Notes: a model not told the origin generated them from the letters alone. A stretch of DNA of 33,641 nucleotides from Candidatus Woesebacteria bacterium (GCA_018062605.1 JAGORW010000003.1:2348-35988); one strand, 5' to 3'; positions 392 to 32,391 are shown, numbered from the stretch's first letter. Made by a program: numbers and translations.

Positions 392-1180
392 TTACTGACC
401 TGCATTGAAGTCCGGCACTGCAGGAGGAGTTGAAGCTGCCGGCTGACCCATTGCTGGGGCTGTTGGCATTGTTGGAATAGCTGGCATTACAGGTGCACTT
501 GGCATAGCTGGTGCAGATGGAATGTTTTGAGGTGTTTGCGATCCAGCTGGACTGGCTGGGGCAACGTCTACTTTCGCTTGAAGGTCCTCAAGTAAGCTAT
601 TAAGTTCATCTTGTGGATCATCTAAATCCACATCTGCTGATGAAACTGGATTAAGAGGTTGGACTGGCTGTAACATACTTGGAGAAGCTGTCTGAGTGAG
701 TGATGGAATAGTGGAAACTGGTGGCTGATCCATCGCTGGTGAAACTGGTGGCTGATCCATCGCTGGTGCTGCAGACATGTCCAAGCTTGGCATCGCTGGT
801 TTTGGCATATCAACAGGAGCTGGTGTTACGGGCATATCAAGGCTTGTAGATGCATCCTCAGGCAGCTTATTTGCATGCATATCCATTGGCTTTTCATTTT
901 GAGCTGCTTGCATTGGAGCTCCAGACATCTGAGCAATAGCATCATCAAATTCTGACAGTGTGAAACCCTTTAACATAACATTCTGTGTTCCCTCTTCCAA
1001 TGATGTAAAAGGAACACCTGCAAAATTCTGAGATTTCTGAAGCATTTCTGCAAGAAAATCCTTGTTTGCCATGACATCTTTCTCATCAAATGGCAAACCT
1101 TTAGAGGTTAAATAATCCTTCTCTTGCTTACAGAATTGGCAATCTGGAATCGTGTATAGTGTGATTTTCATACTCTTCAT
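392..1180 (-). CDS. glutaredoxin-like protein with long Pro/Ala/Met-rich repetitive tail
   Basis: Residues 1-85 form a glutaredoxin/NrdH-type thioredoxin fold: a beta strand, then the redox motif CQFC (Cys14, Cys17), then GVPFT carrying the cis-proline typical of the family, then a C-terminal helix. Such proteins normally end near residue 85. Here about 175 extra residues follow: low-complexity Pro/Ala/Met/Asp sequence with a perfect duplication of PAMDQPPVS, an acidic stretch (DDPQDELNSLLEDL, about 187-200), and a tail of PAMPSAP-like units. No signal peptide or membrane segment is visible, so a cytoplasmic location is inferred. The start could be Met1 or Met4. A perfect 12-bp palindrome (TCACTATAGTGA) containing a possible -10 lies directly upstream. 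Confidence 0.7.
   Translation of the reverse strand: MKSMKITLYTIPDCQFCKQEKDYLTSKGLPFDEKDVMANKDFLAEMLQKSQNFAGVPFTSLEEGTQNVMLKGFTLSEFDDAIAQMSGAPMQAAQNEKPMDMHANKLPEDASTSLDMPVTPAPVDMPKPAMPSLDMSAAPAMDQPPVSPAMDQPPVSTIPSLTQTASPSMLQPVQPLNPVSSADVDLDDPQDELNSLLEDLQAKVDVAPASPAGSQTPQNIPSAPAMPSAPVMPAIPTMPTAPAMGQPAASTPPAVPDFNAGQ
714..767. repeat. perfect tandem duplication of 27 bp inside the glutaredoxin-like gene
   Basis: Two identical 27-bp units (714-740 and 741-767) sit head to tail and encode the nine-residue unit PAMDQPPVS twice. The identity at the DNA level suggests a recent slippage or unequal-exchange event in the tail. Confidence 0.9.
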
Positions 1181-1305: not shown

Positions 1306-1863
1306 TTAGTTGGCGTCTTTATAGAACTCCAGCTTATCCAACAACGTTATCGCCCCATCTTGATTAATGTCCAAAGCTGGATCGAACACCTCATCCTCTC
1401 GAGTCGAGCCCATCGATTGCTCATTAAAGGACTCATTATTCAGGCCATATGTAGGGCTACTTGTACTTGCTGGTATAAATCCCAAAGCACGTTTAGGGGC
1501 TCCAGTATCAATAAAAACATAATAGCCAACATTGCTGCTGAGAGTTACATCATCAGTTGTAATAATATGATTGACCGTCTCAACTGTATCCTCACCGCAT
1601 AAGAATTGAACACCAGTGCGCCCTGCTGCACAATAGACCTCTGCCTTAACAGCACAACTTGTACTAAATGAGATAGAACCTGCTCTCTCAGAAACACGTG
1701 TCACATGAATATCACTCGCCGAACATGAGGCTTGGGCTTCTGGCCGTACATTATTTATGGCATACATTCCGCCAAAAATAACGAACACCAAAACCACCAT
1801 TGCTATCAAAGACATGATGCTTTTTTCCTTTCCCCTATACTTTTCTGACAAATGTAGTTCCAT
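1306..1863 (-). CDS. anchored Cys-containing surface protein with a half dockerin at its C-terminus
   Basis: From the ATG at 1863 the protein has 185 residues. It has a basic N-terminus (KYRGKEKS), one hydrophobic helix (about residues 16-35) and an extracytoplasmic Cys-rich domain. The last 25 residues include DINQDGAITLLDKLEFY, a single calcium-binding repeat of a type I dockerin. Dockerins need two such repeats, so the domain is cut in half, exactly where the intergenic array begins. A TTG at 1875 and an ATG at 1815 are alternative starts. I prefer 1863 because it keeps the positive residues ahead of the helix. It is convergent with nothing and follows the cohesin gene on the same strand. 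Its job may be to dock onto a cohesin, but half a dockerin may be non-functional. Confidence 0.65.
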   Translation of the reverse strand: MELHLSEKYRGKEKSIMSLIAMVVLVFVIFGGMYAINNVRPEAQASCSASDIHVTRVSERAGSISFSTSCAVKAEVYCAAGRTGVQFLCGEDTVETVNHIITTDDVTLSSNVGYYVFIDTGAPKRALGFIPASTSSPTYGLNNESFNEQSMGSTREDEVFDPALDINQDGAITLLDKLEFYKDAN

Positions 1864-1924
1864 TTTTTGTATCAATTAATAATATTCTCCCTATCCTCAC
1901 AGCATTTCATCCTCATGTTTCCGT

Positions 1925-1957
1925 CCGTTGACCAGTTCACCAGTTAACTAGTTCACA
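1925..1957. repeat. intergenic GTTAACTAGT/GTTCACCAG array
   Basis: A short run of about 9-10 bp units (GTTGACCAG, TTCACCAG, TTAACTAG) lies between the two minus-strand genes. The cohesin gene's TGA stop sits at its edge, followed by the ACTAGTTAACTGG words on the coding strand. Confidence 0.75.
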
Positions 1958-2816
1958 ACACAAACACTTTAACAAAAATACTTATCGCTGTCAGTAACAA
2001 TCCAATTCCTACCACTATCCCAATGGAACCCACTTCCCCACTCTTTGGAAGGGCCGATGGGCTGGCTAATGGACCTTGGGTAATAGCAGCTCCACCTGTT
2101 GCTACTATCGTTGGTTTCAACGTTGGAACTCTTGTTGGCGATGGTGTTGGCGTTAATGTTGGTGTGTTTGTGGGCGCCCCAGGCTTCAATGTTGGCGTTG
2201 GAGTGTTTGTTGATTGAGTTTGAGTCACCACAGGCGTTGCTCTACCTGGCAATGTTGGCTCAGGGGATGTTCCAGGCGTAGTTCCTGTTGATGCGCCTCC
2301 AACCGAGTAGCTCCCGTTTTTCACTTTTGCACATTGAATCACATCCGTTGTCTTCTTGTTTTTCCGAACAGCAATGGCTGAGTCTTTCGTCTCTCCATCC
2401 TTACATCTCAGGGTCAGAGCATGAGTTCCGGCTTTCAACGCTTTAAATCTCATCACAGCAATGGCATCTTTTGGAGGGGTGCTTGAAATAGCTTCACCGT
2501 CCAAATTTATCCAATTCACTATATATATAAGTTTCGGGGAATTTTTAGTAACAATATCATTGCTAAAAAACTTTTGTGAAGCCTCAGGATCTTTCACATC
2601 AATCAATTCAAGCTGCGTTGCATCAAAGTCAATCCAAGCTTCTGCGCCTTGCACTTTTTCTTCCTCAGTATTGATACGAACGTTGACCGTCACAATATCG
2701 GAGACAGCAACACTTTTGGTTTGCGGGTCTAGGAACAGATATGCCGCTTGAGCAGATTGAACAGTTCCCAGGAATCCAAGACATACAATGAGCGTAACCA
2801 ACAGGTGTTTGATCAT
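1953..2816 (-). CDS. cohesin-like domain protein with LPKSG cell-wall sorting signal
   Basis: This 287-residue exported protein begins with a signal peptide (about 1-24, ending in AQA). Residues 25-170 form a cohesin-like beta-sandwich (opening VSDIVTVNVRINTEE; AWIDFDATQLELIDV matches the family's xxxYDPxxLxV strand). A Thr/Pro-rich linker (about 175-250) follows, then LPKSG at about 256-260, a hydrophobic helix and the end of the protein. LPKSG plus helix is a sortase signal, although the usual Arg/Lys tail is almost absent. A sortase gene lies at 28288-29073. By analogy with cellulosome scaffoldins, this would be a surface anchor that captures dockerin proteins. A TACTAT -10 ends 7 nt before the ATG, with TTTACT 17 bp further upstream. 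Confidence 0.75.
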   Translation of the reverse strand: MIKHLLVTLIVCLGFLGTVQSAQAAYLFLDPQTKSVAVSDIVTVNVRINTEEEKVQGAEAWIDFDATQLELIDVKDPEASQKFFSNDIVTKNSPKLIYIVNWINLDGEAISSTPPKDAIAVMRFKALKAGTHALTLRCKDGETKDSAIAVRKNKKTTDVIQCAKVKNGSYSVGGASTGTTPGTSPEPTLPGRATPVVTQTQSTNTPTPTLKPGAPTNTPTLTPTPSPTRVPTLKPTIVATGGAAITQGPLASPSALPKSGEVGSIGIVVGIGLLLTAISIFVKVFVL

Positions 2817-2823
2817 ACAATAG

Positions 2824-2852
2824 ATAGTATCATGAACGAGTTAACTAGTAAA
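2824..2852 (-). promoter_or_regulatory. leaderless promoter for the LPKSG cohesin gene
   Basis: On the minus strand TTTACT and TACTAT are separated by 17 bp, and TACTAT ends 7 nt before the ATG at 2816. The -35-like hexamer is part of the intergenic array. Predicted only. Confidence 0.5.
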
Positions 2853-2990
2853 CTGGTGAACTGCTTAACTGGTACTAGTTAACTCTAGTTAACTAGAGTC
2901 CCTCCCCCTCTTTACCTCTTTACCTCTTCACCTCTTCACCTCTTCACCTCTTCACCTCTTCACCTCTTAACCTCTTCACTTCTTTACCAC
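2836..2990. repeat. two-part intergenic array: GTTAACTAGT words, then CACCTCTT 9-mers
   Basis: Positions 2836-2899 are made of TTAACTAGT/AACTGGTGA words, including GTTAACTCTAGTTAACTAG. Positions 2910-2990 are about nine head-to-tail copies of a 9-bp unit, CCTCTTCAC, with drift at the ends. The array separates the divergent cohesin genes and stops directly at the TTGACA of the downstream promoter. Confidence 0.85.
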
Positions 2991-3019
2991 TTGACAGCCA
3001 TTCTGGAATATGGTTTTAT
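2991..3019 (+). promoter_or_regulatory. promoter of the cohesin / VWA-dockerin operon
   Basis: A perfect TTGACA (2991-2996), a 17-bp spacer and TTTTAT (3014-3019) end 7 nt before the ATG at 3027. The TTG of this -35 box can be misread as a start codon 36 nt too early. Confidence 0.65.
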
Positions 3020-3026
3020 TATAGAT

Positions 3027-3632
3027 ATGGAAAACGTACAAAAAGATATGCAAGACTTTAATAACCTTCATCCAAATAGAAAACTCGCAGTTTTTGGAAT
3101 CATTCTTTTCATCTTTGTTCTCAGCATTTTGGTCGGTGTGTACTTTACCCAATCAAAAGGCACCATGAAGACTGATAGAACAAATCCAACTGGTACCGTA
3201 GCTAGCTCAAAAACCACAACTCTTTCACTCGTACCAAGCACCGCAGAAGTAAAAGTCGGTAGCCAAGTGAAAGTTTCAGTTATGTTATCTGGTGAAGCAG
3301 TTCCAGCAGCAGACGTTGTTGTTAACTACGATCCAGCTTTCTTTGCTCTTTCAGATACAGACATCTTGGTTGGATCAGCTTTCAAAAGCATTCCATTCAA
3401 AAAGGTTGAAAACGGAAAAATAATTGTTTCCACACTTGTTGATTTAAGCAAGCCTACAGAAGTTAATACAGGTGAAGTTATATCATTTACACTTGAAGCT
3501 CTCAAGCCAGGATCTTCAGAACTTTCATTCGATATTGAGGATGAGAAAGATGTTCACAAAACAATAACATCAAAGGTCGGCGGAATTGACACATTAAAAA
3601 CTGCCCAGGGTACTACAATAACTATCAAATAA
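3027..3632 (+). CDS. membrane-anchored cohesin-like protein
   Basis: The protein has 201 residues from the ATG at 3027. A TTG at 2991 is in frame but belongs to the -35 box, so I reject it. One helix (about residues 20-40) preceded by NRK anchors it, and the rest should be outside. After a short Thr/Ser linker, residues about 60-200 read as a cohesin: EVKVGSQVKVSVML, then VVVNYDPAFFALSD (the conserved YDP strand), then GEVISFTLEAL and a final strand TTITIK. It is the first gene of a tight operon: the dockerin-VWA gene starts 7 nt after its stop. It is a paralogue of the 12170-12787 protein, which shares QDF..L.P before its helix. Its partner is probably a dockerin protein in this locus. Confidence 0.75.
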   Translation: MENVQKDMQDFNNLHPNRKLAVFGIILFIFVLSILVGVYFTQSKGTMKTDRTNPTGTVASSKTTTLSLVPSTAEVKVGSQVKVSVMLSGEAVPAADVVVNYDPAFFALSDTDILVGSAFKSIPFKKVENGKIIVSTLVDLSKPTEVNTGEVISFTLEALKPGSSELSFDIEDEKDVHKTITSKVGGIDTLKTAQGTTITIK

Positions 3633-3639
3633 TCAATCC

Positions 3640-6600
3640 ATGTTTCATAGATTATCAAATACCAACAATCAACGAGGAGAAGTCGCTTGGCTTCTTACAG
3701 TTGTATCTATGGTTGTCATCGGTGTTGGTTTAGTGATCGGTTTCAATATAAGCACACAAGAGCAAGCAGCTATTCGAACTGCCCCACAAGCTCAGGAAGT
3801 TACTCCAGCTCCAAGTAAACAACTTTTGACTGAACCTGTGGATAATCTTCCACGAGTCTGTTTCCCATTTAAGAAAGATGAAAATGGAAAGCCAGTGCGT
3901 GTTTCAGATCCATTTTGTTTAGCGAGACTCGTTCCAGTCCAATTCACCAAAAGAACCCTAACGACAAGTGCAATAGATTTCTTAAGTAAGCTCAAAAAGA
4001 CAGATTTTGTAAATAAGGTTCAAGTAAGCACACTTGACAATCCATTCACAAATCTCACAACACCAAAATCCGATCTCACTGACATTGTAAACATACCGCC
4101 TGCATCCTTCTCATTTAATGGTGGTCTCTGTTTGCGGGAAGATGAAATTCAAAATTTTGATATTTCTGGTTGGAACATATATCTGAGTCCTTTTTATGTA
4201 AGAAAGTATGAGAGCACCACGAACGCAGGCGCTGCTGAATTTGACACCTTCGATGCAACAATAGTAGATGCGAATAAATTAGTTGCACAAGCTGTAGATG
4301 GAAACATTCGTTACACCTCTGATACCGCACCAACCGCTGCCCAGAAAGGAAACCAGATCTGTAACTATAAGAAAGGTAATCCAACAACCGTTAAGTCTTC
4401 AGCGAATTATCCCGTACTCTTCAAAGTTCCTTTTACATATAGCCAACTTCTTCAAAAGATCAATAAACCTGATCTCAAAGGAATCACGGACGCTCAAGGA
4501 TTTGACACTCAAGAGTGCAGTCTCTATTTACATGCTCGAAGAGGTGGACAGTCAGAAGGTGACATTTGGAATATCGCCAAAATTAAGCTTTCTGAGATTA
4601 TTGGTGAAGAGGCCGCAGCAGTTGTCTGCCCACCACCAGTAATTATTACGCCCCCAAATCCTTCAATAACTATTACTACTACTCCAACACCATCAGATTC
4701 TCCAACACCTTCTCCAGAGCCACTCTCATGTACTGCTCAATGTACATCTTCTGATACATGCGGAACCTATATAGATCCAATTACAGGAACGACTGAGCAG
4801 CTTGGATGCCTTGATACATCTGATGCAACCGTCACTGCCATTTGTGATATCAATAGTGGTAACAATTGTCAATGTGCGCCTACCAAGTGTATCGGTCCTA
4901 AAGGAGTCTGTAGTCCAGAAGAGCTTGCATGTGGAAAAAGCCCAGCAACTGTCACACTTCCACCACCAACAGTAACCGTCACACCTCCACCACCTACAGT
5001 AACAATTGGACTTCAAGAACAGGTTTGTGCATACAATGCATTGGCCTTCGTCGAAGAATGTCTACAAGTTGACCCAAACTCTGGTGAATGTGTAGCAGTT
5101 GGTGAGAGAAAAGTGGCAAATGCTTTCACTGATGCAATTCTTGATCCAACACCAAATGAATTAAATCGAACAAACAAATGGGGTGCGAGCAATAATTTGC
5201 AGCTTGCCAATGTTCGCCCAGATGGAACACCTGGTTTCCGACCAGCAAGCCTTGTTCCAGCTTCATTGTTTACAGTGTACGATACAAATATGGTTGGCAC
5301 TTTAGCCACCCAATATAAGCAATTTCAAATCAACAAAAATGCACCTCTCTCAGCAATCAACTTATCAAGCACTCGTAAACTTCCAACAAAAAAGTTGACT
5401 TTGAGAGAGCAACTTTCAGAACTGCTGACTCGTAAGGATGTTATGTTTCAGGATTTGGCAGTTTTACCTAAAGACGATGCAAAGCGGTTTGATGCAGAAC
5501 AGTATGTAAACTTTGAGTCACCAGCTTCAGTGAGACTTGACTATGATCGCGAAAATTACAGAATTCTAAAGGGCGGAAAGAAAGTGTATACCTGTTCAAA
5601 CTCCATTCAGGATCAGATCGATGCTATTGATGGCAAACCAGCAAGATTTAATGGAGTTAAACCAGATGTAAGCGCATGTGTCCCTGAAACCCCTGAGCAA
5701 AAAGAAACACTTGATACCATTTACGGTCTCAACGTTGGCTGCGGTCAGAACATCGTCTATGGGTGGACACTCAAAAAGTGTACCTTTGACTTTGATATCG
5801 TATTAGTTGTCGATACTTCATCTTCAATGAACTATGTTGTCGAAGGTACCCCAAAAATTGAAGTTGCCAAGAAGCAGCTAATTGAATTTGTTAACTATGC
5901 AAAGGTTCATTATGGCCCAAACACACGAATCTCACTGGTGACATTCAACAAAGCTGACAGCTATGTCAATGGAGTAACATCACACAATGATGGTGCTCAT
6001 ACCCTTGCTACCAAAGTTCTTTTATCTGATTCAGCTGCCACACTTAAGCTCCTATCAACTATTGAGTCTAAAATTCAACTCTCACAAACTGTAGAAGGTA
6101 CATGTATTCAATGTGGTCTCAGAACCGCTAAAAGCATTCTCGGTACCCGTGCAGAGTCGGATTCAACAGCTCCTGTAGTATTAGTGCTCTCAGATGGAAA
6201 TCCAAACTCATTCCCAGGAGGCAAGGGTTCTCCAATAGTTGGCCAACCAAACCCTGGTAATCCTTTTAAAGAGATTTATGACCTTGCTGACTCAATCAGA
6301 AATGACGGAGTTACAACAGATCAAAATGGAGGACGTGTAATTGATCCTAAGAATTCAATAAAAGACGATGTCCTCTTAGTAGCTTTTGGATACGGAGATA
6401 ACCAAAAGCCAGAACAAGGTGAATTACAAGGTCTCTTTATCGAAACCCTCCGAGCAATGGTCTCATACAGAAGGAATAGCGCTGGAGACTTCGACAAGAC
6501 CATCAAGCCATGGTTATACGACACTGATAAGGGCGCTGATGTGCCTCCAGTAGATGTTGCCGCCATGATGGACACGATCAAAGACGACCTTAGCAGCTGC

Positions 6601-6852
6601 GCACAACTTCAAAACATCGCTTCAGCTGTCGAAAAAGCTAAGGACGTTGACCAAAATGGTATCGTCAATATTCTCGACCTCACAGCCGTCTTTGATAACT
6701 ACTTTGCAAAAGGTGTGAGCTTGAAGGAAGACATCAACTCTGATGGAATCGTCAACATTAATGACGCCGTTCTCGTCATTGGAAGCTTGGGAACAGTTGT
6801 AACACCTGCAGATAAGCCAGTTACAGAGGCGCCAACTCAACCAGCTCAGTAA
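3640..6852 (+). CDS. large surface protein with VWA domain and C-terminal type I dockerin
   Basis: This protein has 1,070 residues. A helix at about 14-35, just after NNQRGEVAWLLTVV, anchors or exports it. A large unassigned region follows, then a Pro/Thr linker (about 335-360), a Cys-rich patch (about 363-430) and a second TVTPPPPTVT linker. Just before the VWA domain comes the shared GLNVGCGQNIVYGWTLKK motif (about 704-721). The VWA domain (about 721-960) has an intact MIDAS: DTSSS, the Thr of VTFNK and Asp in VLSDG. The end is a complete dockerin with both calcium loops, DVDQNGIVNILD and DINSDGIVNIND. VWA domains bind protein ligands through a metal ion, and the dockerin should bind a cohesin, most simply the product of the gene just upstream. 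The next gene starts 3 nt after its stop. Confidence 0.85.
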   Translation: MFHRLSNTNNQRGEVAWLLTVVSMVVIGVGLVIGFNISTQEQAAIRTAPQAQEVTPAPSKQLLTEPVDNLPRVCFPFKKDENGKPVRVSDPFCLARLVPVQFTKRTLTTSAIDFLSKLKKTDFVNKVQVSTLDNPFTNLTTPKSDLTDIVNIPPASFSFNGGLCLREDEIQNFDISGWNIYLSPFYVRKYESTTNAGAAEFDTFDATIVDANKLVAQAVDGNIRYTSDTAPTAAQKGNQICNYKKGNPTTVKSSANYPVLFKVPFTYSQLLQKINKPDLKGITDAQGFDTQECSLYLHARRGGQSEGDIWNIAKIKLSEIIGEEAAAVVCPPPVIITPPNPSITITTTPTPSDSPTPSPEPLSCTAQCTSSDTCGTYIDPITGTTEQLGCLDTSDATVTAICDINSGNNCQCAPTKCIGPKGVCSPEELACGKSPATVTLPPPTVTVTPPPPTVTIGLQEQVCAYNALAFVEECLQVDPNSGECVAVGERKVANAFTDAILDPTPNELNRTNKWGASNNLQLANVRPDGTPGFRPASLVPASLFTVYDTNMVGTLATQYKQFQINKNAPLSAINLSSTRKLPTKKLTLREQLSELLTRKDVMFQDLAVLPKDDAKRFDAEQYVNFESPASVRLDYDRENYRILKGGKKVYTCSNSIQDQIDAIDGKPARFNGVKPDVSACVPETPEQKETLDTIYGLNVGCGQNIVYGWTLKKCTFDFDIVLVVDTSSSMNYVVEGTPKIEVAKKQLIEFVNYAKVHYGPNTRISLVTFNKADSYVNGVTSHNDGAHTLATKVLLSDSAATLKLLSTIESKIQLSQTVEGTCIQCGLRTAKSILGTRAESDSTAPVVLVLSDGNPNSFPGGKGSPIVGQPNPGNPFKEIYDLADSIRNDGVTTDQNGGRVIDPKNSIKDDVLLVAFGYGDNQKPEQGELQGLFIETLRAMVSYRRNSAGDFDKTIKPWLYDTDKGADVPPVDVAAMMDTIKDDLSSCAQLQNIASAVEKAKDVDQNGIVNILDLTAVFDNYFAKGVSLKEDINSDGIVNINDAVLVIGSLGTVVTPADKPVTEAPTQPAQ

Positions 6853-6855
6853 GCT

Positions 6856-7695
6856 GTGAAAAAACCATATTTTACTTCTATCACCACTTTCTCACTTGTT
6901 ATTACTTTGGTTTTTTCTGTGATTATTTTGAATTCAACACGCATTACTCTACAATCTGAGGCACAAGAATCTGCATCCAACACACCCACTCAGGCTGAGG
7001 AACCTGCGTGCAGCATGCAAGTCGAGGTGTTTATAAAAGAGCAACTGGTAGATGGCAGCCGCGTTTTGTTAGACTTCAAAAAGCATCCAGAGCTTGACCC
7101 CCTCAAATGGGGTTTCTCAGACACAATCAATCAACTTCCCTACTCTAACCCTCCATACGTCATCTCTTTTACCCATCCAACCCAAGCGAAATACACTAAT
7201 TTTGTTAATGAGCTGAGTTTTGTGGCATTTCCAAAGCAGAGTCAAATCTATGGCTCAGAAGAAGACACTGACATTTCAATCACCTATCAAGATGCATATT
7301 TTGATGTTGTACAGCAAGAAATAGAGATGTGCTCGCTGGAAGGAACTACCGATTGGCTCTGCTCATCAGACAATGTGGGTGATGTTGAAACAATTTCTGG
7401 GATTCCAGTAAAGTGCGGTATGAATCTCTCTATTGGTTGGATCGTTGCGAAAACCCAATCTAACACAGCAGGTGCAAAAATTTCTCAGCAGTTTTCTCAG
7501 ACAAAAAAAGTCAACACCGTTATTTCAACCGATATTAACAAAGACGGCATTACCTCCCTGCTTGACCTTACAACTCTCATAAGCGCGTATGGATCCAATG
7601 ACCCTCAATCTGATATCAACGAGGATGGCACTGTAAATGGTCAAGACTATGTGCTGATGCTAGAAGTGCTGACTGGTGAGCTAGTTAACTGGTAA
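6856..7695 (+). CDS. exported protein with complete type I dockerin
   Basis: This 279-residue protein starts with GTG 3 nt after the previous stop, as third gene of the 3027-7695 operon. An N-terminal helix (about 8-27) exports or anchors it. The middle is unassigned and ends with VKCGMNLSIGWIVAK, a version of the CG....YGW module found in three neighbours. Residues about 226-279 are a dockerin with two calcium loops (DINKDGITSLLD and DINEDGTVNGQD). The C-terminal LTGELVNW is encoded by the first words of the following GTTAACTAGT array, so the array has entered the coding region. No catalytic domain is visible. Confidence 0.8.
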   Translation: MKKPYFTSITTFSLVITLVFSVIILNSTRITLQSEAQESASNTPTQAEEPACSMQVEVFIKEQLVDGSRVLLDFKKHPELDPLKWGFSDTINQLPYSNPPYVISFTHPTQAKYTNFVNELSFVAFPKQSQIYGSEEDTDISITYQDAYFDVVQQEIEMCSLEGTTDWLCSSDNVGDVETISGIPVKCGMNLSIGWIVAKTQSNTAGAKISQQFSQTKKVNTVISTDINKDGITSLLDLTTLISAYGSNDPQSDINEDGTVNGQDYVLMLEVLTGELVNW

Positions 7696-7778
7696 ACTAG
7701 TTAACTAGTCAACTGGTTAACTGGTGACTAGTGAACTGGTGAACTAGTGAACTAGTGAACTAGTTAACTGGTCAATTG
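7671..7778. repeat. intergenic GTTAACTAGT array between convergent genes
   Basis: About ten degenerate 9-10 bp units (CTAGTTAACTGG, CTAGTGAACTGGTGAA and similar) fill the whole gap between the dockerin gene and the four-helix-bundle gene, overlapping the coding 3' end of both. Because GTTAAC and ACTAGT are each palindromes, the array can pair with itself and has stop codons in most frames on both strands. Confidence 0.9.
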
Positions 7779-8116
7779 GAAAGTTTTTTTCTCAAAGACT
7801 GGAGTTGCCTTACAAGTATCATATATTCTTCTCGCAATTCTTTGGTATCTATGTCTAGAAGATCTTCAACTATTTGTAAAAGTAGCACTGTTTCGTTTGC
7901 AGAGCCAATAGCGATAACTAGAAAATTCGCAAAACGCTTCTTCGAGGTTGCAAAGCCCTCCATTATATTAAGTGGCACTGACAAACTAGCTCTCTTTAAT
8001 TGATCACGAATAGCAAATTCCCGGGACAATTCAGGATATGAAAATATCAGTTTATAACACATATAATACAGGTCAATACCTTTCCTATAGATTTTTAAAT
8101 CATTTATTGTATTCAT
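7772..8116 (-). CDS. four-helix-bundle protein (23S rRNA IVP / S23 family)
   Basis: The 114-residue protein matches the 23S rRNA intervening-sequence protein family: a start with DLKIYRKGIDLYY, then RDQLKRASLSVPLNIMEGFA, then the FLVIAIGSANETVLLLQI helix and a final helix. The family includes Avd of diversity-generating retroelements, but no reverse transcriptase or template repeat is present here. The gene lies opposite to its neighbours and is flanked on both sides by intergenic arrays. A paralogue at 32056-32391 has the same setting. Its cellular role is not known. No SD or strong leaderless promoter is seen. Confidence 0.85.
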   Translation of the reverse strand: MNTINDLKIYRKGIDLYYMCYKLIFSYPELSREFAIRDQLKRASLSVPLNIMEGFATSKKRFANFLVIAIGSANETVLLLQIVEDLLDIDTKELREEYMILVRQLQSLRKKLSN

Positions 8117-8176
8117 GTAGAAAGGTTATCCAACAAATATGAAAAATGTATTAACACCCACGCTCCAATTACTAAA

Positions 8177-8266
8177 GTGGTTAACATATAAACTAGTTAA
8201 ATAGATCTATAAGGAGAATATAATTGCCCAGTTCACCAGTTAACCAGTTGACTAGTTAACTAGTTC
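8177..8266. repeat. intergenic GTTAACTAGT array
   Basis: Words such as GTGGTTAACATA, AACTAGTTAAATAG and GTTCACCAGTTAACCAG fill the gap. TTGACT (8248-8253) within the array is placed 18 bp upstream of the TATAGT of the next gene and may serve as its -35 box. Confidence 0.8.
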
Positions 8267-8277
8267 CGGTGTATAGT
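8248..8277 (+). promoter_or_regulatory. leaderless promoter, TTGACT-N18-TATAGT-N6-ATG
   Basis: TTGACT is at 8248-8253 and TATAGT at 8272-8277, ending exactly 6 nt before the ATG at 8284. An in-frame GTG at 8269 overlaps the -10 box and is unlikely to be the start. Confidence 0.65.
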
Positions 8278-8283
8278 GAGAGT

Positions 8284-10257
8284 ATGATCTCTGCATCTCA
8301 AAAAGGAACTATCTCAGGAGTAATTTTAGCTGGAGTGAGCCTCATTACAATCATTGGAGCTGTTGTTGGTTTGGCTGTTTCTAATCAAACAGTGACAACA
8401 GAATCGCAGGCTCGCATTGCAAACTCAGATGTCCATCTTGTGAAGGACTCCGTCAATGGATCCTTAGAAGATGAACGCACGGTAGAGCTCTCTGGCGAAT
8501 TTTGCTTCTCCCGCTATCTGCAGTCGGGTGGATCAGAGAAGTGGACGATCTATCCTTCAAATGAAACTGGTGGTCAGCAAAGCCCTCGAGGTGGGAGTGA
8601 TCATATTGATGGTGGCACTCTGAGCGTGGGTCGTGGTTTTCCAGCTCATTGTAAGCGCGTAGATACCAATACTGGTGAAGCTGAATGGCAGGTCGCAGAT
8701 ACAAAAACAATGCAACCTCATAGGTTCAGCGTTCTACTTCATTTTCCTCAAAAACTTGATGATAAATACTGCCCAAGCGTTCATTTGAACTATAAAGGCA
8801 CATGGATGAGCGGTATGCCATTTGCAAAAGTTGATCTCAAAAAGATTAAAGGCCTCTGTACGCCTGCAACGACTCCATCCCCTTCTACAAGCCCATCAGT
8901 GAGCCCATCTGTATCACCACCTCAGGCACCAGTATCACCTGTTCAACAGCCGCTTCCATCTCCGGCAATCCAAGCACAAGGGTATATCACGGTGTATGGA
9001 TGTAAAAAGCCTGAATCCATTAAACTCGAATATTGCAAGAATGATACGTGCACAGAAACGGCTACGCTGCCATATAATGCATCTGATGAAACTAAGCCTG
9101 TTACTCAAGGCATTTGGCTTGAGGATACCAACATTGATAATACATGGATTTACCGGTACAACATGACCATGATTGATGGAAGGCCAATTGATCCTGCCAA
9201 AACATATAGACTCCTTGGAGCAACTGCCATTTTTGATGCTGGAAAGCTCATAGCCACAAGTAAAGCCGAAGATCCTAAGCTCCTTGAAGTCAAGCTGGGT
9301 ACTCGCCGTGATTTCCAAATATATGCTGAACAAACCTGTGCATGCGCAATAAAAGCCACAGCTTCAATTAAGGATAAAAATGGTGCTCTGATCACGGAGC
9401 TGGACAATCAAGTAAACCTATATGGAACTGCTAATAACATTCAGTTCTTCCAGGACTCAACTCGACCTAACACACCATTCAGAAATGGTCAGATCATTGT
9501 GGGTCCTGGTAACTATCCAGATCTCTATATCCCAACAAAGTATGGTTTTGATAGCATGGCAAGCATTAAGCTGTTCGCTCCAGGTTGGAAAATTTTGAAG
9601 CAAGAATGTGTCAGCAAGGGCCTCAAGCCAGCATGTCCAACCCTTGCACCAGGCTCGTCAGTGACGGCAGATAAGCTCCCACGACCAGATCTTTTTGAGC
9701 ATATTCGAGTAACCTGTGGTGTAGAAGTTGAGTACGGTTGGACTATTGAGAAGTTGCCGGTTACTCCTCCTCCATCTGTGCCACTCTCCCCTGTCGCCGC
9801 AAGCCCAGCTCCTAAACCACCAGTTGTGCCTGGAGATATTATTACGGGCCTTACATGTGAACTTCGAGATGATGCTCAACCAGCGGCAATAGTAAATTCT
9901 GACTGCAAACTACAACATCTTGAGCTTCGAGGAGTATATGATGACACCATTGAACTTGATTGGGATAGGCCAAATGGAGAGTGTCAAGGCTATAAACCTG
10001 AGTCTGACCAAGTATACATGGCTATTATCAGACGCTCAACTGATGGCGCTGTTGTCGCAGTGGATAAATTCCTGAGAGATCAAACACCAGAGCTTGGCGT
10101 AAACAACCGAGAGTGGGATGGTATTCCAGGAACCAAAGTTACTCTAGATGAATGGGGTTCAAATGTTCCATACAACCTGTATGCATATGCCCAAAAAGCA
10201 TCTAACCCAAGCTGTGTGAGTCAACCTGTTACGTTTGGATTTAGAGGACCGAAATAG
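8284..10257 (+). CDS. anchored multi-domain Cys-rich surface protein (dockerin-less paralogue)
   Basis: The protein has 657 residues from ATG 8284. Its parts are: an N-terminal helix (about 8-30); an N-terminal Cys-containing module (about 40-190); a Pro/Ser linker with SPSVSPSVSP; a second module (about 232-480) opening with YITVYGCKKPE and closing with IRVTCGVEVEYGWTIEK; a second Pro linker; and a unique C-terminal beta-rich domain of about 135 residues ending FGFRGPK. The first two modules are paralogous to those of the next gene (ISVYSCKQPKD ... LRITCGVDIEYGWVID). That gene ends in a dockerin and this one does not, so it may be retained by its own helix only. No enzyme signature was recognised. 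Confidence 0.75.
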   Translation: MISASQKGTISGVILAGVSLITIIGAVVGLAVSNQTVTTESQARIANSDVHLVKDSVNGSLEDERTVELSGEFCFSRYLQSGGSEKWTIYPSNETGGQQSPRGGSDHIDGGTLSVGRGFPAHCKRVDTNTGEAEWQVADTKTMQPHRFSVLLHFPQKLDDKYCPSVHLNYKGTWMSGMPFAKVDLKKIKGLCTPATTPSPSTSPSVSPSVSPPQAPVSPVQQPLPSPAIQAQGYITVYGCKKPESIKLEYCKNDTCTETATLPYNASDETKPVTQGIWLEDTNIDNTWIYRYNMTMIDGRPIDPAKTYRLLGATAIFDAGKLIATSKAEDPKLLEVKLGTRRDFQIYAEQTCACAIKATASIKDKNGALITELDNQVNLYGTANNIQFFQDSTRPNTPFRNGQIIVGPGNYPDLYIPTKYGFDSMASIKLFAPGWKILKQECVSKGLKPACPTLAPGSSVTADKLPRPDLFEHIRVTCGVEVEYGWTIEKLPVTPPPSVPLSPVAASPAPKPPVVPGDIITGLTCELRDDAQPAAIVNSDCKLQHLELRGVYDDTIELDWDRPNGECQGYKPESDQVYMAIIRRSTDGAVVAVDKFLRDQTPELGVNNREWDGIPGTKVTLDEWGSNVPYNLYAYAQKASNPSCVSQPVTFGFRGPK

Positions 10258-10273
10258 GACTAAAATTAGGTAG

Positions 10274-10279
10274 AATACT
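10274..10279 (+). promoter_or_regulatory. putative -10 box AATACT, 6 nt before ATG 10286
   Basis: The 28-nt gap before the next gene contains TAGAATACT. AATACT ends 6 nt before the second ATG (10286), matching the window-wide spacing; the ATG at 10280 would lie inside the spacer. Confidence 0.45.
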
Positions 10280-10285
10280 ATGAAA

Positions 10286-11977
10286 ATGAAAAAATTATTA
10301 TCAGCAGGATACATCGCAACACCCATTGTTTTGGGGATATTTGTGATTTCTGCCGCAGCAATTGCAAGCTTCCTGTTGCGCCAGCCAAACTCATCCCAAG
10401 CTCAATCAAGCACAAGATTTATTTTACCTCCAACTACCTATAACAGAGATATTCAATCTATTGTCACAGACCCCGTCGGCTCTTCAATCAGAGATGGGAA
10501 TATTGCAGGCTCATTATGTTTCGATGTCAATCCCCCAACCTTTGGCGGCAGATTTAGGACGGTGTTAGTAATGGACCTGAAAGATGAACCAAACGCTGTG
10601 ATTGGGGCTTCAGTATCTCGAGCGCTGACTAATCCAGCAACATCAAAATGTGGCAGCAGAACGCAATCAGGCGGACGATACAATGATGTCTTCAACCTTT
10701 CATTTAACCTACCAGACAAAGCTGACTGGGCAGAAGCATGCCCAGAACTCCGAATTTTAGTCGAAACTCAAGGTAATTGGAGGCAAAAGCCACAAGAAGA
10801 GATTGCGCGCATTAGCCGTGAATTTGTATGCCCAGGCGGAGTGCCAAGTGTAACGCCTGTCACCAGCCCTTCGGTTAGTCCATCGGTTTCCCCATCAGTA
10901 AGCCCTTCAGTCTCACCATCGCCATCTGTAAGCCCAGCTCCAGCTGTAACTGTTGCACCAGCACAAGTATCCTCGCCATCTGTGTCAGGTACTATCAGCG
11001 TCTACTCATGCAAGCAGCCAAAAGATCTTACGATCAGCGTATGTGATAATCCAAATCAAACAGGGTGCCAAACGTTGAGCCTGAAAGGCGCTGAAGCAAA
11101 TGAAAGCATATGGCTTAAAACAGATGAAGGAAACGACAGAACCTATGTTTATGGATATAAAGCACTCAAAAACTCACAAGGTGCGCCTCTCGTAGCAAAC
11201 GCACGAATGTCTGTGAGCTCAGCAGTTGCCACCATTCCAACTCTCAAAGGCACTGATAATCGATTCCTCGCAGCAAACGATGATAAAAACATCGTTACTG
11301 TCACAGGAACTCATGATAAAACAATTGACGCTCAATATGCCACATGCGGCTGTCCATTCAAGGCAACCACATACATCAAAGATGCGCCTACTGGCCAAAT
11401 TCTCCAAACAAGCAGCCCAGCAATGGGAACAGCGAATGATATGCATATCATTAAATTCGGTAATAAAATCAGCCAAAACTTCACAAACGGAAAGTATACG
11501 TTGAATGCTGACCTCATGGATTTCGCAAAAAGATTTAATCCAGACCCATCATTCCCATTCTCAGACTATGGCATTGATGGACTTGCAATGGTTCGACTCT
11601 ATGCCCCTGCGTACAATGTTGTTAAGCAAGAATGCACCTCAAAGGGTGAAGTTCCCGCCTGTCCAGGGTATACACATACACTCAATAAGGAGACCTCGTC
11701 AAAGGACTTCCAGAACCTTCGTATCACATGCGGCGTCGATATAGAATACGGTTGGGTGATTGATAGAGATCCAACCCAAACTCTTTCCGCAGCACAGCTC
11801 TTCACGGCTGAACAAGCTGATGTAGACAATAACGGTGTTGTCAATATCTTCGACCTCTCTGCCTGCGAAGATAACTGGGGTGCAGCAAACAATGTCTGCG
11901 ATCTTGATTCAAATGGCCTCACAAACTCCACAGATGTGGCAGGTGTGATAGCGTTTATTGGGGAATTAGTTAACTAG
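10286..11977 (+). CDS. anchored Cys-rich surface protein with C-terminal type I dockerin
   Basis: The protein has 563 residues from ATG 10286; ATG 10280 is two codons earlier. An N-terminal helix (about 8-30) is followed by an N-terminal module, a repetitive linker rich in SPSV units (about 185-220, encoded at 10865-10935), a second module ending LRITCGVDIEYGWVID and a dockerin (about 507-563). The dockerin has loops DVDNNGVVNIFD and DLDSNGLTNSTD. The last residues, GELVN, are encoded by the downstream array, as in the 6856-7695 gene. It is a tandem paralogue of the preceding gene. A surface role bound to a cohesin is inferred; no catalytic motif is seen. Confidence 0.8.
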   Translation: MKKLLSAGYIATPIVLGIFVISAAAIASFLLRQPNSSQAQSSTRFILPPTTYNRDIQSIVTDPVGSSIRDGNIAGSLCFDVNPPTFGGRFRTVLVMDLKDEPNAVIGASVSRALTNPATSKCGSRTQSGGRYNDVFNLSFNLPDKADWAEACPELRILVETQGNWRQKPQEEIARISREFVCPGGVPSVTPVTSPSVSPSVSPSVSPSVSPSPSVSPAPAVTVAPAQVSSPSVSGTISVYSCKQPKDLTISVCDNPNQTGCQTLSLKGAEANESIWLKTDEGNDRTYVYGYKALKNSQGAPLVANARMSVSSAVATIPTLKGTDNRFLAANDDKNIVTVTGTHDKTIDAQYATCGCPFKATTYIKDAPTGQILQTSSPAMGTANDMHIIKFGNKISQNFTNGKYTLNADLMDFAKRFNPDPSFPFSDYGIDGLAMVRLYAPAYNVVKQECTSKGEVPACPGYTHTLNKETSSKDFQNLRITCGVDIEYGWVIDRDPTQTLSAAQLFTAEQADVDNNGVVNIFDLSACEDNWGAANNVCDLDSNGLTNSTDVAGVIAFIGELVN

Positions 11978-12153
11978 TGAACTGGTGAACTGGTGAACTG
12001 GTGAACTGGACTAATTTTAACCACCCTGCTCCTCCCCCTTCTTCTTCACTTCTTCACTTCTTCACATCTTCACTTCTTCACCTCTTCACATCTTGACCAA
12101 TTCACCAATTCGCCTCTAGTTACTAGTTAACCAGTTGTAACTAGTTAACTGGT
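11965..12153. repeat. three-part intergenic array
   Basis: Positions 11965-12010 carry ATTAGTTAACTAGTGAACTGGTGAA words. Positions 12031-12095 carry TTCACTTCTTCAC-type 9-mers. Positions 12096-12153 carry TTGACCAATTCACCAATT and TAGTTACTAGTTAACCAG words. The array supplies the stop codon of the dockerin gene and a TTGTAA -35-like hexamer for the next gene. Confidence 0.85.
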
Positions 12154-12158
12154 ATGGC

Positions 12159-12164
12159 TATAAT
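12159..12164 (+). promoter_or_regulatory. -10 box TATAAT, 5 nt before ATG 12170
   Basis: A consensus TATAAT ends 5 nt before the start codon. TTGTAA at 12135-12140 lies 18 bp upstream, inside the array. Confidence 0.6.
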
Positions 12165-12169
12165 GAACT

Positions 12170-12787
12170 ATGCAGTCTATTGTGCGAGTGCTACGTATGG
12201 ATTTCCAGGATTTTGCCACCTTGAGCCCTCAGGTGAGGTTTCTTCTTATGTTTCAGATTATCGTTCTTTTTTTGTTGAGCATTTTGATCGGTCTTATTTT
12301 CTCTCCTAAGTTCAAAAATTCAGTTCAAATGAGATCTGGGGCTTCACTGGACACCGTGCCAACTTCCACTCCACAAGTCAAAAATATTCTTAAATTACAA
12401 GCTGAGAAACCATCAATGGTTCGAGGCACCTCACAAACAATCACCGTTTTTTACAATGGGGCTCAATCTGAAGCCGTAGACACAATTGTTCAATACGATC
12501 CAGCTGTAATTCGGGTCGATAAAATTAAAAATTTGGGCATGTTTGATACTGTTTTGCAATCAAAAGTTGCTCCACAACGTGTTGTTTTCTCTGCGGGCAT
12601 GTCACTTGATGCTCTTGAGAAAAATTCCTTTACCCCTGGCCAACTTTTTAGCTTTACAGTCACAGCTTTGCAACCGGTTGAGAGAACTCCTCTCTCCTTT
12701 GTTGAGCCTGAAAGCTATGTGTGGCACAGCACCCAAAATATTGTCACATCTTTCGAGAACGTAACGCTTGAAATTGTGGCACAATAA
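12170..12787 (+). CDS. membrane-anchored cohesin-like protein
   Basis: This 205-residue protein has one helix at about 23-45 and a short linker, then a cohesin-like domain (about 60-203): SMVRGTSQTITVFYNG, then TIVQYDPAVIRVDKI with the conserved YDP strand, then FTPGQLFSFTVTAL and a last strand VTLEIVA. It resembles the 3027-3632 protein in length, topology and the QDF..L.P sequence before the helix, so this is a duplicated cohesin. The following dockerin gene has its own promoter starting at this gene's stop. The cohesin-then-dockerin gene order is repeated in both places. Confidence 0.7.
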   Translation: MQSIVRVLRMDFQDFATLSPQVRFLLMFQIIVLFLLSILIGLIFSPKFKNSVQMRSGASLDTVPTSTPQVKNILKLQAEKPSMVRGTSQTITVFYNGAQSEAVDTIVQYDPAVIRVDKIKNLGMFDTVLQSKVAPQRVVFSAGMSLDALEKNSFTPGQLFSFTVTALQPVERTPLSFVEPESYVWHSTQNIVTSFENVTLEIVAQ

Positions 12788-12793
12788 TATAAT
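12788..12793 (+). promoter_or_regulatory. -10 box TATAAT directly after the cohesin stop, 7 nt before ATG 12801
   Basis: TATAAT begins right after the TAA stop of the cohesin gene and ends 7 nt before the ATG at 12801. An upstream ATG at 12768 lies inside the cohesin gene and would add 11 residues. Confidence 0.6.
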
Positions 12794-12800
12794 ACAACCT

Positions 12801-15089
12801 ATGAAAAAACAGCTCGGAGAAATCGGAACATTGCTCACAATAGTTGCTGTAATGCTTATGACGGCAGGTGTTTTTTTGGGCTCAGCGCTGGTTTCTAAGT
12901 TCTCAGCTCCTTCGTCTCGCACACAGGCACAAGCAACAAGCCCAATAGTTCCAAATGCAGCAAATCAAGACATTGAGGCACGCTTTGGTACAATTTCAAA
13001 TCGTGGTGGGACTGATCAGAAAATGATTGAGACATTTATATGTTTTAAAGGTACAGGTAACCCGCCAAGCATAGGTCGTTACAAGATTGAGGCGCAAGTC
13101 GTTTTAAAAAACGGCGACGCCCCTATTAGTATTGGAGGATCTCTTGAGGAGCCTATCAGTAACCCACTGGACCGCTACCGCTGCAACAGTGAAATGAGGC
13201 ATGTCGTATATACCTACAAGTCCATTGAGGATATTCCGGGTGATATTACCTATGATCAGGTTGAAAAAATTGAGTTCGTTTTCACCTCAATAACAGGAAA
13301 TTGGGACCCATTACCAGCTGGAGTGATTGGAACCATGACCGATATGACAGAGATCTTTGGACCAAGGCCAAGTCCGCCAGCGGCACCAGATATGATTGTA
13401 TGTCCACAAACAAGTAGCCTTTCTCCCTTAGGTGTAATTAATGATGTACGACGCGATCCTTCACTCGCAACAGGATGGAATGTCCTAGAGAATCCTAATT
13501 TGCCTGAAAGTGCAACTAATCGACGTAAGAGATCTCTCGTACTTCAGGATATGTCAAAAACACATCATCCAGAAACAAACAAGCTTTTATTTGCAGCCGA
13601 GTGTCCTACCATACCCACAACTCCTCGACCCGGCAAGCTTACCTTTAACGTAAAAATGAATAATACTGCCTTCACGGGAGACTTCGATGGATTTGAATAC
13701 GTCTTACATTCATGCTCATTTAATGACAAGAATTCGGATGGTAGTCTCAACGAAGGCGAGGCAGAGAACTGCGACGTTGCTCCAAATTTTAAAGGTCAAA
13801 TCGTAACAATCAAAAAGGAAGGCCCTGCTGCAATCAATAAAGTCGATACAAAAACTTTCGATCTGCCAGCAGGTAAGCGCGTTATTTATATGGATTACGG
13901 ATTCTGGAAAAAATATGGCACTACACAAGCACGTAAAGACGTAACTGGAGTTGAGGTAACGTACTCTCCAACATGTTCGAGTCTTCTCGAAAAAACAAAT
14001 GAGACTGGTCCAGCAAAGTGCTTAATCACTATAGATGGAGACACCTCAGTTGAAGCAGCTGTGAAGCTTCCAGACGCTGCAAAAGCCGTCTATCGGCTCG
14101 CATATTCAACAAAAGTTGCTGATGGCACATCAGACTATAAGGGTGCGGAAATCGCAAACTGTTCAGTTGGTAGTAATGCCCAAAATACTTCAGTATCTGG
14201 ACTATGTTCAAAAGATAACCAAGTGCCTATCCCGGCCCTCATATATTCCAATTCCACACAAACCGCTACAAAAGTTGCCTATGTCATAACCCGCTGTACT
14301 GGAGATAGTGCAACTGTATGTAAACCAAATAAATTCTTTACAGATACCATAGATGTTAAGAATATATTTAGTGAAGCTGCTCTTTTTGAACTCACCCCTG
14401 GAAACAGACGAATATGTAAATTTGACCCTTCAAAATTTCCAACAACTGACATAACCGATGCTAAAGTTAGAGAAGCCGTCAGCTGCAACACCGTACCTGT
14501 TCCTACACCTCCCCCAACTGAAGTTGCAGAATACTACGCCAACCTATCGCTCTACAATAGCTCAACAAAAAATATCGTGCACGCTAAGACCCGAGCATGT
14601 GCAAATGGCATAACCTGTACTGATGATGAGCAAGACCTGGAAATCGCACCTGGGACTCGTGAGCTTGTCAGCATCAAAATCGGTAGTATAAAGCCAGAAA
14701 CCAACTTTTATACACTTCGGGTGTATGTTCGCCTTGATGGAAGCGAAACTGATCGGGGCTTAACTGAAGAATTTAACGTCCAAGATCCACAAAGCGTGTA
14801 TTATGATCTCAAAGTGAGTGATACCGCTGTTGATGGATCTGCAGAAACGGAGCTTGATGCTTCGGATGTATCCGGTAACAAGTGTGTAAACGCTGATGAT
14901 GCAGCGAAGGTTATTGCCAAACTTGCGGAGTTTACATCTCCTGATCAATGTATTCCTGAAGATATTAACTGCGATGGTGTTGTGAATATTCTCGATCTGG
15001 CTGTGATCATTCCAAACCTTAATGGTGGTACAGGATGCGCTGCAAATCAACCACTTATCGCTCCAAATCAATCCATCATTGCTCCATAA
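12801..15089 (+). CDS. large anchored Cys-rich surface protein with degenerate dockerin
   Basis: The protein has 762 residues from ATG 12801. The N-terminus MKKQLGEIGTLLTIVAV resembles the QRGEVAWLLTVV start of the 3640 protein and is followed by a helix. An N-terminal module, similar in outline to those of the 8284 and 10286 proteins, is followed by several Cys-containing beta-rich domains and a Pro linker (about 565-572). The end is a dockerin whose second calcium loop is good (DINCDGVVNILD). The first loop, DVSGNKCVNADD, has a Cys inserted and is degenerate. A short tail with a duplicated QPLIAPNQSIIAP-like sequence follows. No catalytic domain was recognised. The next small gene begins 4 nt after its stop. 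Confidence 0.8.
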   Translation: MKKQLGEIGTLLTIVAVMLMTAGVFLGSALVSKFSAPSSRTQAQATSPIVPNAANQDIEARFGTISNRGGTDQKMIETFICFKGTGNPPSIGRYKIEAQVVLKNGDAPISIGGSLEEPISNPLDRYRCNSEMRHVVYTYKSIEDIPGDITYDQVEKIEFVFTSITGNWDPLPAGVIGTMTDMTEIFGPRPSPPAAPDMIVCPQTSSLSPLGVINDVRRDPSLATGWNVLENPNLPESATNRRKRSLVLQDMSKTHHPETNKLLFAAECPTIPTTPRPGKLTFNVKMNNTAFTGDFDGFEYVLHSCSFNDKNSDGSLNEGEAENCDVAPNFKGQIVTIKKEGPAAINKVDTKTFDLPAGKRVIYMDYGFWKKYGTTQARKDVTGVEVTYSPTCSSLLEKTNETGPAKCLITIDGDTSVEAAVKLPDAAKAVYRLAYSTKVADGTSDYKGAEIANCSVGSNAQNTSVSGLCSKDNQVPIPALIYSNSTQTATKVAYVITRCTGDSATVCKPNKFFTDTIDVKNIFSEAALFELTPGNRRICKFDPSKFPTTDITDAKVREAVSCNTVPVPTPPPTEVAEYYANLSLYNSSTKNIVHAKTRACANGITCTDDEQDLEIAPGTRELVSIKIGSIKPETNFYTLRVYVRLDGSETDRGLTEEFNVQDPQSVYYDLKVSDTAVDGSAETELDASDVSGNKCVNADDAAKVIAKLAEFTSPDQCIPEDINCDGVVNILDLAVIIPNLNGGTGCAANQPLIAPNQSIIAP

Positions 15090-15414: not shown

Positions 15415-15420
15415 ATGACC

Positions 15421-28250: not shown

Positions 28251-28279
28251 TTGATACTATAGGCTAAATATGATATACT
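28251..28279 (+). promoter_or_regulatory. promoter TTGATA-N17-TATACT upstream of the sortase
   Basis: TTGATA (28251-28256), a 17-bp spacer and TATACT (28274-28279, with TGA ahead) end 8 nt before ATG 28288. The ATG at 28270 precedes the -10 and is rejected. Confidence 0.7.
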
Positions 28280-28287
28280 ATCTGCTT

Positions 28288-29073
28288 ATGGGTTTTAACG
28301 AATTTGCAACCAAAAAGCCGCTTCTGCATAAAGATCACTTTCAAGGGATTTCTCCGAAAGGATTGTTCCGCAAAGTTGCTGTCAAAACCATTGCAAACTT
28401 TCTTATTCTGTATTCAATCTACATGATTGGATGGGTTTTCTTTGAACCTGCTCTCGCTGAAGTTACGTATCAATATAATAACCTTATTGGAAAAAGATTC
28501 GTCGTTTCTCACGACCAAACAGCCTCAGAAAGTGCTTCATTTTCTGCAGGGCAAGAAACCACTGAAAAAGGGAAATTAGCTGAAGTTTTAGGAGCACAAA
28601 CCACTCAAAAGCTTGTGCCTGTTGATCCTGAATTCTCGATTTTAATTCCAAAACTTGGCGCAAATGCCCGAATTATTAAGAATGTGAATTCAGCCTATTC
28701 AGAAGATTACATGTCTGCCCTCAAAAGCGGTGTTGCACATGCTGCAGGAACCTCATTTCCAGGCCAAGGTAACCACATATATCTCTTTGCCCATTCAACA
28801 AACACATTCACCAATGTGAGCCGTTACAACGCCATATTTTACCTCTTATACAAGCTTGAAGCTGGCGACGAAGTTGACCTTTTCTATCAAGGGGTGCGAC
28901 ACACATATACCGTAACCGGCAAGTCTATTGTCAGTCCAAAAGATGTGCACTACTTAACACGCACAACCGAGACTGAAATGCTGACCATGCAAACATGCTG
29001 GCCACCAGGCACGACAGCACAAAGAATGTTGATTTTTGCGGAGCCCAGCGCGAAAATTTTGGGAAATCGGTAA
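28288..29073 (+). CDS. sortase
   Basis: The protein has 261 residues from ATG 28288. One N-terminal helix (about 35-56) anchors it, followed by a linker and the sortase barrel (about 115-261). The catalytic residues are visible: His in YLFAHSTNT, Cys in MQTCWPPGTTAQR and the Arg ten residues after the start of that motif. Sortases cut LPxTG-like signals and join the protein to the cell envelope. In this window only the cohesin protein 1953-2816 has such a signal (LPKSG), making it a candidate substrate. The class (D/E-like) is not resolved by eye. Confidence 0.9.
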   Translation: MGFNEFATKKPLLHKDHFQGISPKGLFRKVAVKTIANFLILYSIYMIGWVFFEPALAEVTYQYNNLIGKRFVVSHDQTASESASFSAGQETTEKGKLAEVLGAQTTQKLVPVDPEFSILIPKLGANARIIKNVNSAYSEDYMSALKSGVAHAAGTSFPGQGNHIYLFAHSTNTFTNVSRYNAIFYLLYKLEAGDEVDLFYQGVRHTYTVTGKSIVSPKDVHYLTRTTETEMLTMQTCWPPGTTAQRMLIFAEPSAKILGNR

Positions 29074-32055: not shown

Positions 32056-32391
32056 TTAGCTTAGGTTAATACGCTTTCGAAGTGTTGTAATTTGTTTACA
32101 GATAATTTCATACTTTGCAATAAGATCCGCTGTAGGTAATAGTTGCATCCTTTCTACAATTACCAACAAGGTCATAACTTCATTCGCTGAGCCCAAAGCA
32201 ATCGATAAGTGATTGTGAAACACCTTTCGGCTTCGTAAGTAGCCTTCAGAAATATTTGCTGAAACCGAAATAGCAGCTCGCTTAAGCTGATTCGCTATCT
32301 CATACTCCCTAAGCAATTCAGGGCGTTTCAATAAATGAAAGATTTCTATGCTCAGATCGAGCGATGAATGATAGATTTTTAACTCAACCAT
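32056..32391 (-). CDS. four-helix-bundle protein (23S rRNA IVP / S23 family), second copy
   Basis: The 111-residue protein is a paralogue of the 7772-8116 product. It has the family start (ELKIYHSSLDLSIEIF), the IANQLKRAAISVSANISEGY motif and LSIALGSANEVMTLLVI. Identity with the other copy is moderate, so the duplication is not recent. It too is flanked on both sides by intergenic arrays (31983-32046 and 32442-32476). TAATCT ends 5 nt before the ATG. Its role is unknown. Confidence 0.85.
   Translation of the reverse strand: MVELKIYHSSLDLSIEIFHLLKRPELLREYEIANQLKRAAISVSANISEGYLRSRKVFHNHLSIALGSANEVMTLLVIVERMQLLPTADLIAKYEIICKQITTLRKRINLS

Follow-up and report, generated by a model that had tools for sequence, protein, structure and literature searches.

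Cohesin-dockerin pairs are known chiefly from cellulosomes, where one scaffoldin bears many cohesins, and the locus analysed in this work raises the question of what such pairs do in a CPR genome when no carbohydrate enzyme is recognisable beside them. The window, that is, the whole stretch of 33,641 nucleotides under analysis (GCA_018062605.1 JAGORW010000003.1:2348-35988), belongs to a Candidatus Woesebacteria assembly of 0.93 Mb in 99 contigs with a completeness of 87%. It encodes three single-cohesin proteins, four two-loop dockerin proteins and one half-dockerin protein, and these include one VWA protein with an intact MIDAS. The clustering that an earlier, sequence-only reading had pointed out holds at the scale of the genome, 8 of whose 13 cohesin/dockerin genes lie within 1.5% of its length (binomial 3e-12). 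That reading had also proposed that a CPR genome encodes a cohesin-dockerin system at the cell surface, which is well supported by the domains, the anchors and the order-wide gene order, but is not specific to this genome. Rather, the window carries, in rearranged form, a second copy (paralogue) of an operon found across the order. We consider that the locus is probably a single-slot, calcium-dependent surface display platform and not a cellulosome.

All three proteins first read as cohesin-like proved to be so. The cohesins of CohB (1953..2816, minus strand; Pfam Cohesin E 4e-7) and of CohA-1 (2991..3632, plus strand; E 2.8e-5) exceed the curated Pfam cut-off against which the calls were judged. 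CohA-2 (12170..12787, plus strand) had no match in the Pfam cohesin search, and was recognised by a lineage cohesin profile of 35 sequences from the same order, with CohA-2 left out of the training (E 2e-8). Fold prediction for the window cohesins covered this product, and its AlphaFold model has a pLDDT of about 96 across the cohesin domain (residues ~70-205). Among the 50 best PDB matches listed by Foldseek, 49 were cohesins or cohesin-containing proteins (E ~1e-7 to 3e-5, TM-score by target up to 0.80), including the non-cellulosomal cohesin 2xdh of Archaeoglobus fulgidus, so the structure check of CohA-2 gave a cohesin fold that matches solved cohesins. The CohA-1 product alone found no match in the PDB by phmmer; the profile of its architectural type matched PDB cohesins. 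Two cohesin architectures recur in the 61 stretches surveyed (the window and 60 others from the same genome and other members of the order). Type A, to which both CohA proteins belong, has a short cytosolic N-terminus, a transmembrane (TM) helix that serves as anchor and a C-terminal cohesin. Type B, represented by CohB, consists of a signal peptide, the cohesin (residues ~30-150 in the window), a Pro/Thr linker, an LPxS/TG motif and a C-terminal TM helix. Within the window, as within the sister operon described below, each cohesin protein has a single cohesin, and no multi-cohesin scaffoldin was found in the genome.

The LPKSG ending noted earlier in one cohesin protein is present in CohB and is followed by a TM helix, and the LPxS/TG architecture recurs in CohB proteins throughout the order, 32 of 36 of which have R or K among their last 8 residues. 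A sortase, which may be the one sorting CohB, is encoded at 28270..29073 on the plus strand (Pfam Sortase 3e-23), and sortases occur in all 83 genomes of the order, including all 48 of good quality. With its motif, C-terminal TM helix, basic tail and a sortase in the genome, CohB is a predicted substrate of the LPXTG type, which a sortase would presumably cleave and attach.

Four dockerin proteins lie on the plus strand: the VWA-dockerin protein (3640..6852; N-terminal TM, Cys-rich regions, VWA at residues ~719-857, dockerin ~1000-1055; Pfam VWA_2 7e-9, Dockerin_1 3e-4), a 279-aa protein with an N-terminal hydrophobic segment and a dockerin at ~225-275 (6856..7695; Dockerin_1 4.8e-5), a Cys-rich, beta-rich surface protein with a dockerin at ~513-560 (10280..11977; Pfam 0.0025), and a protein with an N-terminal TM and a dockerin at ~695-757 (12768..15089; Dockerin_1 5.7e-5), which has orthologues in two other genomes, G001 and G076. 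Each of these dockerins is C-terminal and carries two calcium-type loops at calcium-binding spacing. Those of the 6856 and 12768 products exceed the Pfam cut-off and the other two fall just under it, while the lineage dockerin profile, in whose training set all four were included, recognises them at E 6e-16 to 4e-21; a dockerin profile also found dockerins of known structure in the PDB. Of 104 proteins, 96 have their dockerin no more than 40 residues from the C-terminus. Binding to a cohesin would presumably depend on calcium. The cohesin-then-dockerin gene order was correctly seen to occur twice (2991/3640 and 12170/12768).

The fifth dockerin-related protein of that reading stands as well, with a single calcium loop at its C-terminus. 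This product, FN (1306..1875, minus strand; DINQDGAITLLDK), is the fourth gene of the operon and combines an N-terminal TM and an FnIII-like domain with the half-dockerin. It has homologues in the FnIII-TM proteins encoded after CohB order-wide (E ~3e-5 to 2e-3) and an orthologue in G076 (E 5e-34), and its counterpart in two Shapirobacteria records has a complete C-terminal dockerin with two loops. The half-dockerin thus appears to be a conserved dockerin in reduced form and not a chance motif. In contig C7 of the same genome and in G001, the two most divergent members, FN was assigned by position together with weak similarity.

The standard operon consists of dockerin cargo, CohA, CohB and the FnIII-like membrane protein FN. 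CohA and CohB were adjacent in this order in 32 different genomes, a count biased by the choice of stretches for carrying cohesin or dockerin; FN came next in 28, and at least one dockerin gene usually lies just upstream of CohA. A scan with the FN gene alone, using a profile built from nine closer FN sequences, is free of that bias because only the fourth gene was searched for, and it returned CohA-CohB-FN in 26 of 36 loci, many of them from the same species. Its hits among named genomes were mainly Candidatus Roizmanbacteria, which the order in question includes, plus Microgenomates and Shapirobacteria records. Since the operon is found in named Ca. Roizmanbacteria and, in variant form, in Shapirobacteria (Microgenomates), the genome was rightly called CPR-type. 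Three families of the order have retained the operon. A cohesin was found in 76 of 83 order genomes and in 48/48 of good quality, of which 43 also have a dockerin; the corresponding figures for cohesin are 204 of 299 good-quality genomes of the class and 72 of 254 in a phylum-wide sample.

The same genome retains the standard operon on contig C7. It opens with three dockerin genes and continues with a TM protein of 304 aa, which takes the position of an extended CohA, before the genes for an M4 peptidase, CohA, CohB and FN. In the window this arrangement has been altered: FN and CohB are on the minus strand, and the plus strand carries CohA, the VWA-dockerin gene, a dockerin gene, 8269, another dockerin gene, the second CohA and the last dockerin gene. 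The altered arrangement is shared by G076, and its right end alone by G001.

The proteins carried by the window dockerins are of several kinds. The MIDAS of the VWA-dockerin protein was correctly recognised as intact: besides DTSSS, the conserved Thr (GTCI) and the Asp of SDG are present, and these residues are kept in two G076 relatives. Cargo of this type is rare, with clear full-length relatives within the order only in G076 and none in the named genomes scanned. The 6856 product has an orthologue at locus L053 (11750-12610). The AlphaFold model of the 10280 product is of low confidence (pLDDT 55) with a beta-rich body; a likeness of this protein to the post-catalytic part of an M4 protein was set aside as a probable match between Pro/Ser-rich linkers. 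The 8269 product (8269..10257, plus strand), a Cys-rich surface protein, had no match in a Pfam search and no detected dockerin, and is related by phmmer to the 10280 product (2e-40) and to a dockerin-bearing G076 protein (1.6e-108). Its place in the middle of the cluster without a dockerin counts against the display-platform reading.

No carbohydrate-enzyme or CBM Pfam family was identified in any window protein, nor in the genome's dockerin proteins found (window, contigs C7 and C13; assembly 87% complete). The earlier statement that no recognisable carbohydrate enzyme is present therefore stands for the window, whose proteins in the cargo census below match no enzyme family, and for those dockerin proteins. 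The sister operon, however, encodes a thermolysin-like M4 metalloprotease (L047 5619-7466; HEMQH, PF02868 E 1.3e-34). This gene runs into N at both ends, where any terminal dockerin would fall, and an orthologue in the same genus does carry a dockerin. Judged from this protease and its congeneric orthologue, the cohesin-dockerin system of the genome is not enzyme-free. The cargo census covered 107 dockerin-bearing or neighbouring proteins in two sets, with 25 of 56 families listed for one set. In the order, M4 domains occur on at least six dockerin proteins and S8 domains on at least two, HExxH was intact in all four M4 proteins inspected, and proteases make up most of the recognisable enzymes on dockerin proteins among the families listed. 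An FAD oxidoreductase, DUF4832/4874 and a Hint-type protein are further domains among the families listed, and a few dockerin proteins have beta-helix, pectate-lyase-like, GH141-like or GH42-like matches.

We propose the following mechanism. CohA would be held in the membrane by its N-terminal anchor with one cohesin exposed, and CohB would present one cohesin on top of a Pro/Thr stalk, and a sortase could use LPKSG to join this stalk to the envelope. These anchors would then capture, with calcium, secreted proteins that end in a dockerin. As each anchor carries a single cohesin, it would hold one cargo, and this cargo would be exchangeable because the dockerin is terminal on many kinds of protein. 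Since most cargo proteins begin with a TM helix, they may be fixed in the membrane without any help from a cohesin. An N-terminal TM is followed by a [KRQS]A motif more often in cargo (78 of 101 proteins) than in CohA (15 of 41; Fisher 1e-5), which gives a hint, not a proof, that cargo may be released before capture. The cargo would be an adhesin-type VWA protein and Cys-rich, beta-rich modules in the window, and would include the thermolysin-like protease at the sister operon. The likely use would be to grip or process the surface of a neighbour or host cell, or a secreted protein; with an intact-MIDAS VWA and a protease among the cargo, contact with protein surfaces and their digestion appear the likeliest purpose, and adhesion or host attachment would be in keeping with it. 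The wider proposal, that Roizmanbacteria-type CPR bacteria share a lineage-defining, non-cellulosomal machine on which exchangeable adhesins and metalloproteases are displayed, so that host or neighbour proteins can be gripped and digested, is a tentative one and is rather doubtful at present.

A membrane-anchored system could also act as glue, both anchored partners cross-linking the envelope or adjoining cells. The N-terminal TM helices of CohA and of most dockerin proteins would allow this, as would an FN protein that has a TM plus a half or full dockerin, and the Coh-Doc proteins that occur in relatives could build chains. However, what lies between anchor and dockerin (large globular parts, proteases, VWA) resembles functional cargo and not spacers, and the conserved Ala motif past the cargo TM may signal release, so we regard glue as unlikely. 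It is still less probable, indeed very improbable, that the locus is a reduced cellulosome for the breakdown of plant or other polysaccharides, as proposed for Shapirobacterales. The domain pair is the same, glycoside hydrolases were reported in the Shapirobacterales genome (PMC9123182), and the few GH42-like, GH141-like, pectate-lyase-like, beta-helix or DUF4832/4874 dockerin proteins of the order would fit; but such enzymes and CBMs are absent from the window proteins and the genome's other dockerin proteins found, each anchor has a single cohesin in a genome without a multi-cohesin scaffoldin, and the commonest enzymes on the order's dockerin proteins are proteases (at least six M4 and at least two S8 among the families listed). 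The half-dockerin of FN, the poorer first loop of the 12768 dockerin and the divergence of the cohesins might even suggest that the modules are vestigial or repurposed and have lost their affinity for each other. Against this, the calcium loops are complete in most window dockerins, the operon is retained in three families with a cohesin in every good-quality genome, and idle conservation would be hard to reconcile with CPR genome reduction; loss of binding is therefore extremely unlikely.

The display platform that we favour shares with the cellulosomes of Clostridia and Ruminococcus (types I-III) the cohesin fold, the C-terminal dockerin with a duplicated calcium loop and surface anchoring, and adaptor-like Coh-Doc proteins are found in the window's relatives too. 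It differs from them in that each anchor protein has a single cohesin, that neither a multi-cohesin scaffoldin nor a CBM or cellulase was found in this genome's set, and that the cargo consists of VWA/Cys-rich modules and proteases in the lineage. In archaeal ANME, cohesins and dockerins occur without cellulose use and were proposed to serve surface attachment, perhaps contact with bacteria; their cargo comprises S-layer domains besides ABC binding proteins, and in some cases one protein has up to five cohesins (PMC9012536). Compared with these archaeal sets (A. fulgidus, ANME), the window lineage has a fixed CohA-CohB-FN operon and a sortase-type anchor. Shapirobacterales belong to the same bacterial class as the window genome, and at two named Shapirobacteria loci a dockerin-bearing FN protein comes after CohB, which at one of them is accompanied by CohA. 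Cohesin and dockerin proteins of a Shapirobacterales population were expressed according to its metaproteome and interpreted as a cellulosome, and the accessible part of that report does not describe the operon architecture or the protease/VWA cargo (PMC9123182). In a CPR epibiont of the Saccharibacteria, the essential envelope protein SEML1_0315 has a dockerin domain and was suggested to target host glycans; that paper mentions neither a cohesin nor an operon like CohA-CohB-FN (PMC10633639). No description of this operon was found in the open-access literature, a scope outside which most subscription journals lie.

Cohesin and dockerin proteins were already known in Shapirobacterales, and the larger result is the recognition of the window as a second copy of an order-wide operon. 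The joint presence of cohesin and dockerin in CPR genomes should not be taken as a sign of cellulose degradation. How Microgenomates CPR bacteria deal with the outside world is largely obscure, and this question becomes testable in vitro through an operon that a whole order has kept in spite of genome reduction, whose assembly logic is clear and whose binding domains are soluble.

A cohesin and a dockerin occur together in one protein encoded on stretch L103 (3327-5045, minus strand), one of those compared with the window, and 12 more proteins are similar. Their genes frequently lie directly upstream of that of CohA, the membrane-anchored protein with a C-terminal cohesin, and these proteins resemble adaptor scaffoldins. 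Dockerins on other stretches are joined to an S8 subtilase domain (L099 7033-9330, minus strand; L122 112-2241, plus strand) or follow a Hint/intein-type self-processing domain at the start of the protein (L106 8849-10408, minus strand; Hom_end_hint 9.5e-10, Hint 1.8e-8).

In the window, a 7TM_transglut protein and then an ATP-grasp and Zn_protease-like protein are encoded adjacent to the right end of the cluster (15415-17530, plus strand), and this pair is conserved there in two related genomes, G001 and G076. Within the cluster, a small-protein gene lies antisense (7772-8116, minus strand); its product is related to that of 32056-32391 (minus strand), and by eye both resemble the four-helix 23S rRNA-associated family. 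The matching site in G076 holds a gene of transposase-like appearance (L053 12638-13345).

A glutaredoxin-domain protein with a long Pro-rich tail (392-1180, minus strand; Pfam 1.7e-9) is encoded beside the cluster, and G076 has a similar gene at the equivalent position (L053 3366-4061). This protein is possibly linked to the Cys-rich cargo of the cluster.
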